From positions 1-25,882 of IMG/VR virus record IMGVR_UViG_3300042914_000213: 25,882 nucleotides of DNA. One strand, written 5' to 3'. Shown here in pieces: positions 16,634-23,871 of the stretch. The notes under the pieces were generated by a model, which did no database searches, was not told the origin of the DNA, and was given only the letters and a program-made list of their open reading frames with translations. Each line of letters starts with the position of its first letter. Positions within the stretch are counted from its first letter, which is position 1. Origin of the DNA: a virus. Position numbers and translations under genes: made by a program.

Positions 16634-17314
16634 TTATTTCCCGTTATTGTGCGCCTCTATAGCGCCTTCCTCTACATCTTCCCATCGATACTCGTAAGTC
16701 CCAATGTGCCCAATATGCTTGGATAGGCTGTGATCTACATAGGTCTGAAAGCCCGCATCCAAGGCCTTGATGCAAAAATGCACATCCTCGCCAATAATGC
16801 CCTTAGACCCCCAACCCACATCAAACCAAGGCTTAGGAACCTTCTCAAACACTTCCTTGCGAATCATCACCACACCAAAACCAACCGCTGTGACAGGCTC
16901 TATACCCTCCCTGCCCATCGAATCTACCTTGTGCCAAGCGTGACGAATAATCTTACCCTCGTCATCCTTCTCAATCTCAAGGTTTAACGCAGTCGGTAGC
17001 GTAGGCTTACGTCTAGTTACCGCATTGACACCAACAATCGGAACCTCACGGCTTAGCAAAATGTCAATCGTGTCAGCCGGGAACCTCATGTCTGAGTCAA
17101 TAAACAGAACCGCATCACATCCTTCAGCCAGAGCAGCATCTACTAGCTTCTCTCTCTGATCGAATATCAGCGTTCCTGCCATCGTATAGAGCTTTAGCCC
17201 GTTGCCATCTTTGGAACACCTGTGCTTAGAATCCCTGCCAACCATCTTGGCAAAGTCAAAAGCAAATGCAGTGTGAACCTCGTCCCTAGCTGGTACACAA
17301 ACTCCTACGTTCAT
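16634..17314 (-). CDS. GT-A-fold glycosyltransferase among the head/tail genes
   Basis: The 226 residues show an N-terminal nucleotide-binding start (NVGVCVPARDEVH), a Q-R-x-K-L-V-D-A-A-L helix, and the metal-binding D73-S-D75 in AVLFIDSDMRFP. A downstream acceptor region (AVGFGVVMIRKEVF) and IIGEDVHFCIKALDAGF, with the E-D-x-x-x catalytic-type motif, follow. The layout is that of a small inverting GT2-like enzyme transferring sugar from a nucleotide donor. It is locked between structural genes, with its ATG overlapping the previous stop (TGATG) and the adaptor starting three bases later. That argues for late expression and possible glycosylation of virion proteins. Donor and acceptor are unknown. 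Confidence 0.82.
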   Translation of the reverse strand: MNVGVCVPARDEVHTAFAFDFAKMVGRDSKHRCSKDGNGLKLYTMAGTLIFDQREKLVDAALAEGCDAVLFIDSDMRFPADTIDILLSREVPIVGVNAVTRRKPTLPTALNLEIEKDDEGKIIRHAWHKVDSMGREGIEPVTAVGFGVVMIRKEVFEKVPKPWFDVGWGSKGIIGEDVHFCIKALDAGFQTYVDHSLSKHIGHIGTYEYRWEDVEEGAIEAHNNGK

Positions 17315-17622: not shown

Positions 17623-17635
17623 AAATCCTCATAAC

Positions 17636-17661
17636 TCCCCCAGACCCTAAGGCCCGGGGGA
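17636..17661 (-). promoter_or_regulatory. 11-bp RNA hairpin after the capsid gene (attenuator or mRNA-end element)
   Basis: On the plus strand the arms are TCCCCCAGACC and GGCCCGGGGGA around a CTAA loop. In minus-strand RNA all 11 positions pair (nine Watson-Crick, two G-U) with a UUAG tetraloop. In plus-strand RNA the same two positions would be A-C mismatches, so the element is built for the minus strand. It lies in the 53-base gap between the capsid stop and the next start. No U-tract follows, so it is not a standard intrinsic terminator. It may protect the 3' end of capsid mRNA or lower downstream transcription. Confidence 0.7.
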
Positions 17662-17675
17662 TATACAAAACTCCG

Positions 17676-18620
17676 TTACAGAGCCATGTTCAGGTCAGCC
17701 ACGATGCCATGAGCAGCCTCGTTTTTGACCTCGAGCGTGCACTCGACCAAGATTTGAGTCTTGTCAGCATCGCCAGCCTTAGCCAGTTCGTTCGTCTGGA
17801 ACGGACGCAGGTAAGCAATAGCTGCATACTCAGGATCAAGGATCAGAGCATCACGGGTACGCATGAAGCGGTTAGGAACCACCGACATATTGCCGAAGTC
17901 GCTGACGTAGATGTCAGCAGCGCCGATAATCGTCGAAGGAGCAGCACCAGTCACGTTGAAACGAGTCTCAGCGATACCAGTGAACGAAGACACCTTCTGC
18001 TTACCAGTTGCGCCAACCATCAGCACTTTAGGCGAGCCACCGGAAACGAACACCTCAGCCACAACTTCTTTCAGCAGGGCTTCAGTGAAGGTACGGGTGT
18101 TACCGTCAGTACGGGTAGAAACACCGATAGTCGTAGGATCGCCACCGTTGGTTTGAGCCGACGAGTTGGTTTTGATCCAAGACAGCAGCGAACCCATCTT
18201 ACGAGCGTTAGAACCGTCACCAGCCGAACGACCTTGGTTCGACAGCAGGATGGTTTCCAGATCGCGTTTGATCTCTTGCGAAGCCTTAGCCAACTGATAA
18301 GCCTTTTCAGACTTACGACCAGCCTTGTTCACTGTGTCCAGAGTGCCAGAGACCTTGATAGTCTTTTGCAGGATCTGGGTGTAGTTACCAAGACGAACAG
18401 TCGGAGACAGGGTAGCGTCCGAAGCATCAGCACCTTCAACAGCAGCGTTAGCGGTAGTAGCGGCTGCAAGGGTGTCGGTCTGCCACTCGTGGTAAACAGC
18501 CGTAGCTTTCGTCTTGCCAATCGAAGACATGAAAGGAGTCTCGGTTGGGCTGATGTCATAGATAACATCGGTAAGGTCTTCACGCTGACCAATAGCGGTA
18601 TGGGCGGTATAAGTTGCCAT
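17676..18620 (-). CDS. major capsid protein, SU10-type HK97 fold
   Basis: The 314 residues match the SU10-type capsid family: N-terminal REDLTDVIYDISPTETPFMS, then KATAVYHEWQTDTL, NYTQILQKTIKVSGTLD, the ELA-like helix EKAYQLAKASQEIKRDLETI, and C-terminal FGNMSVVPNRFMRTRDALIL, DPEYAAIAYLRPF and LECTLEVKNEAAHGIV-like strands. Many copies assemble the shell. Codon use differs from neighbours (CTG, AAC, TTC, GAC, GCT favoured), as expected for the most highly expressed gene. That bias also empties the antisense strand of stops. The gene is preceded by the scaffold gene at 11 bases and followed by the strong hairpin. Confidence 0.9.
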   Translation of the reverse strand: MATYTAHTAIGQREDLTDVIYDISPTETPFMSSIGKTKATAVYHEWQTDTLAAATTANAAVEGADASDATLSPTVRLGNYTQILQKTIKVSGTLDTVNKAGRKSEKAYQLAKASQEIKRDLETILLSNQGRSAGDGSNARKMGSLLSWIKTNSSAQTNGGDPTTIGVSTRTDGNTRTFTEALLKEVVAEVFVSGGSPKVLMVGATGKQKVSSFTGIAETRFNVTGAAPSTIIGAADIYVSDFGNMSVVPNRFMRTRDALILDPEYAAIAYLRPFQTNELAKAGDADKTQILVECTLEVKNEAAHGIVADLNMAL

Positions 18621-22003: not shown

Positions 22004-23263
22004 TTATACAACCCATTTGGCATTGATAGGCAAATCTGACGACCATGAATCATCGCTCTCGTCAAGCCCGATTGCTAGGTATCTAAACGCATCTGAGTAG
22101 TGGCTAGACCAGTCATGCAGTGGCTTGTCGTAGAACACCTGTTGCTTCTCGTTATATTCACGACGATAGTTCCGCAAAGCATCTAGTCCCGTCTTAGTCT
22201 TGTGGTCAAACCAGCAACGTGGGAGCAAGCGTCTGACAGCTTGTATTCCATCGGCTACAGACAGTCTAGGCGCAACTGTAATCTCTAAGCCAGCCTCGTT
22301 AAGAACCTCCTTACGGCTCTTACCAGTGCCTAGTTCCCTTACCTCCACATCGTGCGGCAGTATCTGTGCAAAGCCTTCGTACTTGTTTTCCCTGAGCCAC
22401 GATACATACCAGTCCAAACCGACTCCGTGGTTCTCGACGCAATCGATAATCCTAACTTCTTTGCCAGCCAACTGAGCAACGAACAAGCATGTAGAGTCAC
22501 CCATACCGAGATCCCAAGCAACAAAAGACCGGCAAAGATCATCCCGGTCAATAGTCGTGATCCTAGACTTGGCTTCGAGATCGTTAATAATCTGACCATA
22601 ATAACTACCCTCAACTGGTGCATCAAAAGAACACTCGAATTCTTGCAAATACTTATCTTCTCCCATTTCTTGACGAGAAGACCATAGCTCTTTCTCTGGG
22701 ATAATATTTGTCTGCGAAGCCCTAAACTCAACTAACGCCCAATCCTCAGTTACTTTGGCTCTATCGCGCAACCCTTTATAGTGATTGTTCCCTTTCGGGG
22801 TTCCGATGAATAGCGCCCATCCAAGACGATCAGCTAGGGCAGGACGAAGAATCTCGTTCCAAATCTTAGGATTCATATCGCCAACTTCGTCTAGCACTAC
22901 TCCATCGTAGTACCCACCTCGTAACGAATCTGGGTTTTCAGCGCCATGTAGCGAAATCCTACGTCCCCAGAAATCTACCCTAAGTTCCGATATATTAGCC
23001 ACTGCACCTAGTGGAGCCGTATATTTAACTAAATAATCAAAGGCAATTCTTTTGGCTTGGGCATAAGTTGGCGCGACATAGGCGTATCTAGGAGCCTCTA
23101 GCTGGCACTCTATAGCCTGTTTAACAATCTGGTTAATAGCTGCAACAGTCTTGCCAAACCGCCTGTGCATAACTCCGACAACGAAGCGGTTATTGTCTAA
23201 CGCCTCATGCAGAGTTAGTTGATGTTCCCTTGGCTTATAAGGGATCTCGATTACTTCACTCAT
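22004..23263 (-). CDS. terL: terminase large subunit
   Basis: This 419-residue protein is a packaging motor with ATPase and nuclease domains. The P-loop is H33-R-R-F-G-K-T39, an Arg-rich variant seen in Terminase_6-type enzymes. Walker B is DGVVLDE at 120-126 with E126 as the catalytic Glu, and motif III follows at FIGTPKG. The C-terminal RNase H-like nuclease shows the first acid in FVAWDLGMGDST and a late acid in SSHYSDAFRYLAIG. It cuts concatemers and drives DNA through the portal. The ATG overlaps the methyltransferase stop (ATGA at 23260-23263). It ends 28 bases before the portal start. Confidence 0.93.
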   Translation of the reverse strand: MSEVIEIPYKPREHQLTLHEALDNNRFVVGVMHRRFGKTVAAINQIVKQAIECQLEAPRYAYVAPTYAQAKRIAFDYLVKYTAPLGAVANISELRVDFWGRRISLHGAENPDSLRGGYYDGVVLDEVGDMNPKIWNEILRPALADRLGWALFIGTPKGNNHYKGLRDRAKVTEDWALVEFRASQTNIIPEKELWSSRQEMGEDKYLQEFECSFDAPVEGSYYGQIINDLEAKSRITTIDRDDLCRSFVAWDLGMGDSTCLFVAQLAGKEVRIIDCVENHGVGLDWYVSWLRENKYEGFAQILPHDVEVRELGTGKSRKEVLNEAGLEITVAPRLSVADGIQAVRRLLPRCWFDHKTKTGLDALRNYRREYNEKQQVFYDKPLHDWSSHYSDAFRYLAIGLDESDDSWSSDLPINAKWVV

Positions 23264-23871
23264 ACAAATATCTTTTGCTTTTGTGCATCATTTATTCGGT
23301 CACAAGCAATATCAAAATATTTTCTTTCTCGTTCTATCCCAATAAACTTTTTCCCCGTTTGCACACAAGCAACACCAGTGGTTCCAGATCCCATAAATGG
23401 ATCAAGAACTGACTGTATGTTTCCAGCTTTTTCTAGTGTCCAAAGCATTACCTTTAAAGGCTTCATGGTTGGATGAATCTTTTTTTCACCAGACCAATGA
23501 TGTGACAAATGCCTAACTTGTTTTCCAAAATTAGTCCATGCCATTTCGCATTCACTGAAACTTCTTCCGTCATTTTTTTTGTGCCAAATTAACCAATCAT
23601 TTGTCGGTGGTAATTGATCCGAAAAATAATTTCCACCCCAAAAACAGGCATATTTAGAAACACTTAACCAAATAGAAACATCTGGGGCTGATTCATCCCA
23701 ATCCCCACCACGATCAAATTCTTTCTTACCTTTGCCTAATGTTTGTTTATTTGCGCTTATTCCATACGGAGGATCAGTAATCACAGCATCAACTTTGTCT
23801 AATGTCGGCAGTATGTCCATGCAATCGCCAAGGTATAGGGTAGCGTCCCCTATTGTGACTATTTCTGCCAT
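23260..23871 (-). CDS. DNA methyltransferase, beta-class N6-adenine (or N4-cytosine) type
   Basis: The 203 residues have catalytic motif IV D33-P-P-Y36 (AVITDPPYGI) before the SAM-binding motif I DPFMGSGTTG at 157-166, the order of the beta class. HPTMKPLKVMLWTLEKA lies just before motif I. DPPY favours adenine N6. No restriction endonuclease adjoins, so it is an orphan that may protect phage DNA or mark packaging sites. It is inserted between the small- and large-terminase genes, overlapping both. Sampled 60-base lines are about 33-38% G+C against 45-57% in the terminase genes, suggesting separate acquisition. It carries an A8 run in the coding strand (23573-23580). Confidence 0.9.
   Translation of the reverse strand: MAEIVTIGDATLYLGDCMDILPTLDKVDAVITDPPYGISANKQTLGKGKKEFDRGGDWDESAPDVSIWLSVSKYACFWGGNYFSDQLPPTNDWLIWHKKNDGRSFSECEMAWTNFGKQVRHLSHHWSGEKKIHPTMKPLKVMLWTLEKAGNIQSVLDPFMGSGTTGVACVQTGKKFIGIERERKYFDIACDRINDAQKQKIFV

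Follow-up and report, generated by a model that had tools for sequence, protein, structure and literature searches.

A conserved hairpin behind the major capsid gene of SU10/LUZ24-type phages, a possible 3' border of the capsid message

The gap behind the major capsid gene of the window (the whole 25,882-base stretch of a viral record analysed here, with its late genes on the minus strand) holds a genuine hairpin of 11 consecutive pairs (Table 1). Judged by sequence, the hairpin is constant across the family of related phages and the U-run behind it is labile, and it seems somewhat probable that the element serves as a 3' border keeping capsid mRNA above the downstream messages, by a block to decay where it is U-less and by partial termination where it is U-rich. 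Tailed phages need capsid in excess, many more capsid than tail subunits being made from one late transcript, and they usually meet this need with a terminator behind the capsid gene. A family that keeps the hairpin yet often does without the U-run suggests that the same excess may also be reached through RNA decay. In the mechanism we propose, the capsid-sense hairpin would fix the 3' border of the capsid part in the late polycistronic message. The U-less form of the window would be mainly a decay barrier, 3'-5' exonucleases halting at the GC-rich stem, so that once the downstream RNA is cut or ended the capsid segment would outlive the tail-side segment, as in malE-malF of E. coli. In relatives with a U-run the hairpin would additionally be a partial intrinsic terminator for host RNA polymerase, and by either route capsid message would come to exceed downstream message.

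Table 1. Features of the capsid locus in the window, in window coordinates
Feature	Position	Strand	Basis
Scaffold gene upstream of capsid, 326 aa	18632..19612	minus	PHROG 3927
Major capsid gene, 314 aa, SU10_MCP	17676..18620	minus	Pfam PF17236 E 9.6e-105, PHROG 1328
Capsid stop codon	17676-17678	minus	
Spacer from capsid stop to hairpin, 14 nt	17662..17675	minus	
11-bp hairpin, UUAG loop	17636..17661	minus	transcript pairing, folding energy, relatives
Hairpin arms	5' arm 17661-17651, loop 17650-17647, 3' arm 17646-17636	minus	
Tail after stem, GUUAUGAGGAUUU, without U-run	17623..17635	minus	
Gene 3' of capsid, 102 aa	17314..17622	minus	PHROG 3982 (no assigned function)

Two of the 11 stem pairs are G-U in the minus-strand transcript and read A-C on the plus strand, just as an earlier note on this DNA had described, and the folding energies that the note called for agree with its assignment of the hairpin to the minus-strand RNA: a 38-nt segment reaches -25.5 kcal/mol when folded as the minus strand (z -5.1, equalled by none of 200 shuffles) vs -13.6 kcal/mol as the plus strand (z -1.9, equalled by 8 of 200). 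Taken alone at -21.3 kcal/mol, it is the strongest simple hairpin (a perfect stem of at least 8 pairs) in a census of both strands of the window. None of 200 shuffles of its own 78-nt gap reaches the real value; the best hairpins from 30 whole-strand shuffles range from -11.9 to -20.9 kcal/mol, one of them lying within 0.4 kcal/mol of the window hairpin. The earlier note had placed it exactly after the capsid stop; it does follow the capsid gene but begins 14 nt past the stop codon, in a gap of 53 nt before the 102-aa gene. The note's further statement that almost every other junction in this region overlaps was too strong, since 4 of the 13 other minus-strand junctions in the ORF list from 23871 to 12427 overlap, the remaining nine comprising six spaced by 0-11 nt and three with gaps of 27-149 nt. 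Across the whole window Rfam gives no match above gathering score, and a known RNA family was set aside for the hairpin on this ground.

The presence of the hairpin in close relatives was followed in 81 loci, namely the window and the best 80 of at least 591 IMG/VR capsid relatives (74-100% identical), with next-gene starts restricted to ATG and GTG. All 81 carry a strong hairpin in the post-capsid gap, each at -14.7 kcal/mol or better; among the 50-nt sense windows of its own locus it is always in the top 1%, and it ranks first in 48 loci. These loci yield 30 distinct hairpins, with stems of 11 bp in 15 and 10 bp in 6, and a tetraloop in 26 (UUCG in 10 of the 26, UAAC in 5). When each was set against 200 shuffles of its own gap, 28 of the 30 had no shuffle as good, and of all 6000 shuffles 3 reached the real value. 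In seven of nine long contigs the post-capsid hairpin is the strongest intergenic simple hairpin; stronger ones are a minus-strand hairpin in G008 and a U-run hairpin outside ORFs in G013.

A wider set of 185 loci was assembled from capsid searches with Venkman, HTVC106P and LUZ24 (the best 80 of 205, the best 80 of at least 599, and 9 relatives) together with 16 annotated records; 11 loci ending at a contig edge were left out and 174 used. Within 80 nt downstream of the capsid stop, 137 of the 174 have a simple hairpin of -10 kcal/mol or better, and 36 of the other 37 loci were refolded and all reach -10 kcal/mol within 75 nt, which is a loose test. The form varies: short stems of 7 bp are frequent in the LUZ24 and Venkman groups, GNRA-type loops occur in 11 of 43 hairpins of the wider set, and in 32 pelagiphage-like loci a single stem closes a loop of roughly 11-15 nt that in some cases holds one or two inner pairs. 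The fold of L265 is unlike a single hairpin, and the gap of L094 is too short for any. In SU10 an 11-bp hairpin includes the capsid stop codon, and the SU10 record marks a terminator one gene later. In pelagiphage-like loci (for example L193, L222 and L231) the 5' side of the loop repeatedly shows, by eye, the letters GUAAYCU, a possible contact site. A second hairpin was seen further downstream in L045-type loci and in L060.

Covariation was measured on two sequence-only alignments, of 26 and of 15 distinct gaps, against 500 shuffles each. Two-sided changes that keep the pair account for 30 cells in the first alignment (12.3 in shuffles, with none of 500 reaching 30) and for 17 in the second (6.5 in shuffles, with none of 500 reaching 17). 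According to the earlier note, a lack of compensatory changes in relatives would refute its reading; such changes do occur there, so that this refutation is not borne out, though the measures of covariation disagree. Sliding the partner by 1-3 columns in the first alignment lowers all measures. Three of the five measures (the covariation score and the numbers of paired and of doubly changed cells) exceed all 500 shuffles, and these three are inflated by kinship; the two least inflated lie within the range of the shuffles, with pairs showing two-sided change at 6 vs 4.8 (104 of 500) in the first alignment and 4 vs 2.8 (91 of 500) in the second, and pair types at 17 vs 15.0 (71 of 500) and 8 vs 8.0 (333 of 500). 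The 86% of cells paired in the first alignment is an underestimate, because MAFFT shifted the rows that have a base in column 48 out of register by one position.

The strand typing of the earlier note extends to the relatives. Among the 30 distinct hairpins, with G-U and A-C equally allowed, 68 G-U stand against 12 A-C, and in 28 of the 30 the sense strand folds more stably; the 17 distinct U-less hairpins have 32 G-U vs 9 A-C, and the 73 distinct hairpins of both sets together have 122 vs 30. The excess of G-U over A-C and the stability of the sense strand make capsid-sense RNA most likely the selected molecule, and the same excess disfavours a DNA-level element.

The tail behind the stem is where the family diverges. 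With 11 bp at -21.3 kcal/mol (or -25.5 kcal/mol for the longer segment), the window hairpin has the GC-rich stem-loop of an intrinsic terminator, and it lacks the U-run, as the earlier note had seen: GUUAUGAGG follows the stem, with 3 U in the first 8. The hairpin is not among the 16 terminator-like sites of a scan of the window, and it scores -13 against a cut-off of zero on a d'Aubenton Carafa-type score, used to rank U content and stem strength only, which was built for E. coli and may not suit the phage's host. The score is passed by 27 of the 81 close loci, and by 49 of 218 when these are pooled with the wider set. Other tails, such as ACUACGAAA and ACCACUAGG, are nearly free of U with a strong stem kept. 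Terminator-like and other forms are separated by at least 9 changes on the capsid tree (74 non-HNH rows), or at least 8 under a strict cut (68 rows), these being parsimony counts on a quick tree whose forks are often weak; recombination can also swap the gap. Three relatives with capsids nearly identical to that of the window (L002, L006, L007) have a different hairpin with a UUUUCU tail. In L002 the gap is unlike that of the window throughout left flank, hairpin and tail, with 100-nt blocks 84-100% identical upstream of the gap and 93-99% downstream; the contrast with the similar flanks suggests that the gap may be exchanged as a cassette. In G011 and G012 (L045, L049) the post-capsid hairpin is U-less and a separate U-run hairpin lies elsewhere. 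A common 16-bp hairpin with a U-run occurs at G008:17364-17400, G012:29768-29804 and G013:21412-21448 (0-based starts, capsid-sense strand); the copies in G008 and G012 overlap small ORFs (of 51 aa in G012), and the hairpin is likely a true terminator in all three.

The main competing explanation, which we find doubtful, is that the window's hairpin, like the U-rich ones, works by partial intrinsic termination, its stem pausing and releasing host polymerase with the weak-U GUUAU, perhaps with help from NusG/NusA or Rho, and read-through feeding the downstream genes. It is favoured by the position, which is shared with the annotated terminators of LUZ24 and tf, the predicted one of UFV-P2 and T7 Tphi, by the UUUUCU tails of relatives with near-identical capsids, and by the compatibility of a short or imperfect U-run with partial termination or pausing. 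The polymerase would also suit it: no T7-type RNA polymerase was found in 12 relatives' contigs, some of them perhaps incomplete, or in LUZ24, with T7 as a positive control, so that host polymerase likely reads these late genes. Against it stand the 54 of 81 loci below the cut-off, many of them nearly U-free with the strong stem kept.

T7 Tphi resembles the window hairpin in its place immediately behind the major capsid gene, with gene 10 on one side and gene 11 on the other, and sets capsid above later messages. It differs in having a U-run and in acting on T7 RNA polymerase, a type of polymerase not found in the 12 relatives' contigs or LUZ24. In the records of LUZ24 and tf a Rho-independent terminator is annotated immediately behind the major head gene, and for UFV-P2 the published account predicts a terminator after the head gene and derives two nested late modules (PMC3890496). 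The position of a hairpin after an SU10/LUZ24-type capsid is thus already known. In these phages as in the window, the element is on the strand of the SU10/LUZ24-type head gene, in the interval before the small gene that follows, and LUZ24 and tf share the GC-rich stem and the tetraloop; their stems have 7 and 9 bp with U-rich tails, whereas the window has 11 bp and no U-run, UFV-P2 being compared by description. Relative to these terminators, the less ordinary feature is a constant hairpin with a U-run that is present in some relatives and absent from others.

For a border that blocks decay, the nearest parallels are bacterial. In E. coli, according to one study, 26 of 34 stabilised 5' operon segments end just past a stable hairpin without a uridine tract, and in those 26 cases Rho-dependent termination was not detected (PMC5927463). 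The malE-malF operon of E. coli (PMC5927463) and the puf operon of Rhodobacter have, like the window, a stable U-less hairpin at the 3' border of a stabilised 5' operon part; they differ in being bacterial operons, and 17 of the 26 E. coli structures lie inside the next gene (PMC5927463). The window hairpin is of this kind by sequence, a stable U-less intercistronic hairpin 3' of the capsid gene, and the malE-malF precedent would carry over, by analogy, to the phage hairpin. The earlier note's suggestion of a 3'-end stabiliser or partial terminator would be consistent with the post-capsid place and the missing U-run. From the same features we infer, as our favoured reading, a decay barrier in the window and a role in capsid stoichiometry. 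More tentatively, SU10/LUZ24-type phages may share an RNA element at the capsid 3' border in which the hairpin is what selection keeps, evolution toggling it between terminator and decay barrier, with decay setting the capsid excess in many of them. The 30 distinct hairpins in 81 loci form a compact natural series for setting terminator against decay barrier. Our literature search, with most subscription journals outside its coverage, found no U-less capsid-border hairpins and no mapped 3' ends for LUZ24.

The spacing around the hairpin bears on the gene with which it goes. From the capsid stop to the hairpin the spacer is 3-28 nt in 81 of 81 close loci (median 11); the 137 wider loci have a median of 13 nt with a middle half of 9-14 nt, vs a middle half of 14-66 nt to the next start (132 loci). 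Among 50 distinct non-HNH close gaps the middle halves are 14-16 nt to the next start vs 7-12 nt to the stop. The large departures in spacing fall downstream of the hairpin, not on the capsid side: an HNH gene in seven loci, a tRNA gene in phiM5, and long spacers in HTVC106P and L045-type loci. On balance these distances suggest that the hairpin belongs with the capsid gene, and a link to the next gene may exist. That the hairpin instead controls the next gene, by hiding or spacing its ribosome-binding site or by protecting the 5' end of the downstream message, appears improbable. It draws on the tight distance to the next start within the close set, and on the seven of 81 loci in which the ribosome-binding site GGAGG of an HNH gene lies inside the 3' arm, as in T4-type homing endonucleases, so that hiding this site is an evident further use of the hairpin there; for phage homing endonuclease genes (I-TevI, mobE), PMC2988022 describes a hairpin that hides the ribosome-binding site. 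The window differs from these in having no HNH gene and a free GAGG at 17630-17627 (minus strand), in the tail outside the stem, which is likely the ribosome-binding sequence of the 102-aa gene. A free GAGG or AGGA outside the stem is likewise found in the typical close locus, and hiding of the site is disfavoured as a general role for this reason; the wider set is moreover loose toward the next start and tight toward the capsid stop.

The HNH endonuclease gene (identified as Pfam HNH_3 on L005) lies directly 3' of the hairpin in L005, L031, L048, L056, L063, L066 and L069. Its stop overlaps the next-gene start as ATGA, with an open next frame in six of these loci and the same letters in L048. 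The HNH state requires at least 6 changes on the capsid tree, again a parsimony count on the same quick tree. A capsid stop followed by CG (TAACG...) was seen in 12 of the 81 loci, namely five of the seven HNH carriers and seven loci without HNH, including the window (17674-17678, minus strand), and is possibly a trace of past homing or cassette exchange.

A processing site, at which RNase III or another endonuclease parts capsid from downstream message, is also quite improbable as an explanation of the hairpin. It would find its best case in the L038-L068 group (for example L041:5943-5998), where a 4-bp GUAG/CUAC helix was seen under the stem, across a 4x1 internal loop; the helix is present in aligned register in 13 of 15 distinct rows, with 93% of cells paired. 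A helix and internal loop of this form resemble bacterial RNase III substrates. This lower helix, however, shows no two-sided change in the alignment and was not seen in the window's group, and most close-set stems have only 10-11 bp, which is short for RNase III. Stem-loops do act as cleavage signals in the cip-cel operon of R. cellulolyticum, as reported in PMC10311766.

A chance hairpin, or a DNA-level element such as a cruciform or replication structure, is barely credible: one of 30 whole-strand shuffles coming within 0.4 kcal/mol and two covariation measures not above shuffles are outweighed by the rarity of equally good gap shuffles (3 of 6000) and conservation in 81 of 81 close loci, which reject chance, and by G-U far above A-C.

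Several features of the neighbourhood were noted in passing. A 7-bp terminator-like hairpin spans the capsid stop at 17669-17685 (minus strand), just upstream of the main hairpin; the scan giving it returned 16 sites vs 13.5 expected, and it may be chance. Genes for an SU10 portal and a head scaffold lie upstream of the capsid gene, and downstream of it come genes for an SU10 adaptor and for a protein of GP4 gp80 type. A glycosyltransferase-like gene at 16634-17314 (PHROG 1574, without assigned function, and with a Pfam match below cut-off) separates the adaptor gene from the 102-aa gene, and the Venkman record has no gene at this place. Upstream of the terminase, at 23260-23871, a 203-aa protein matches the C-terminal part of the DNA methylase family PF01555.
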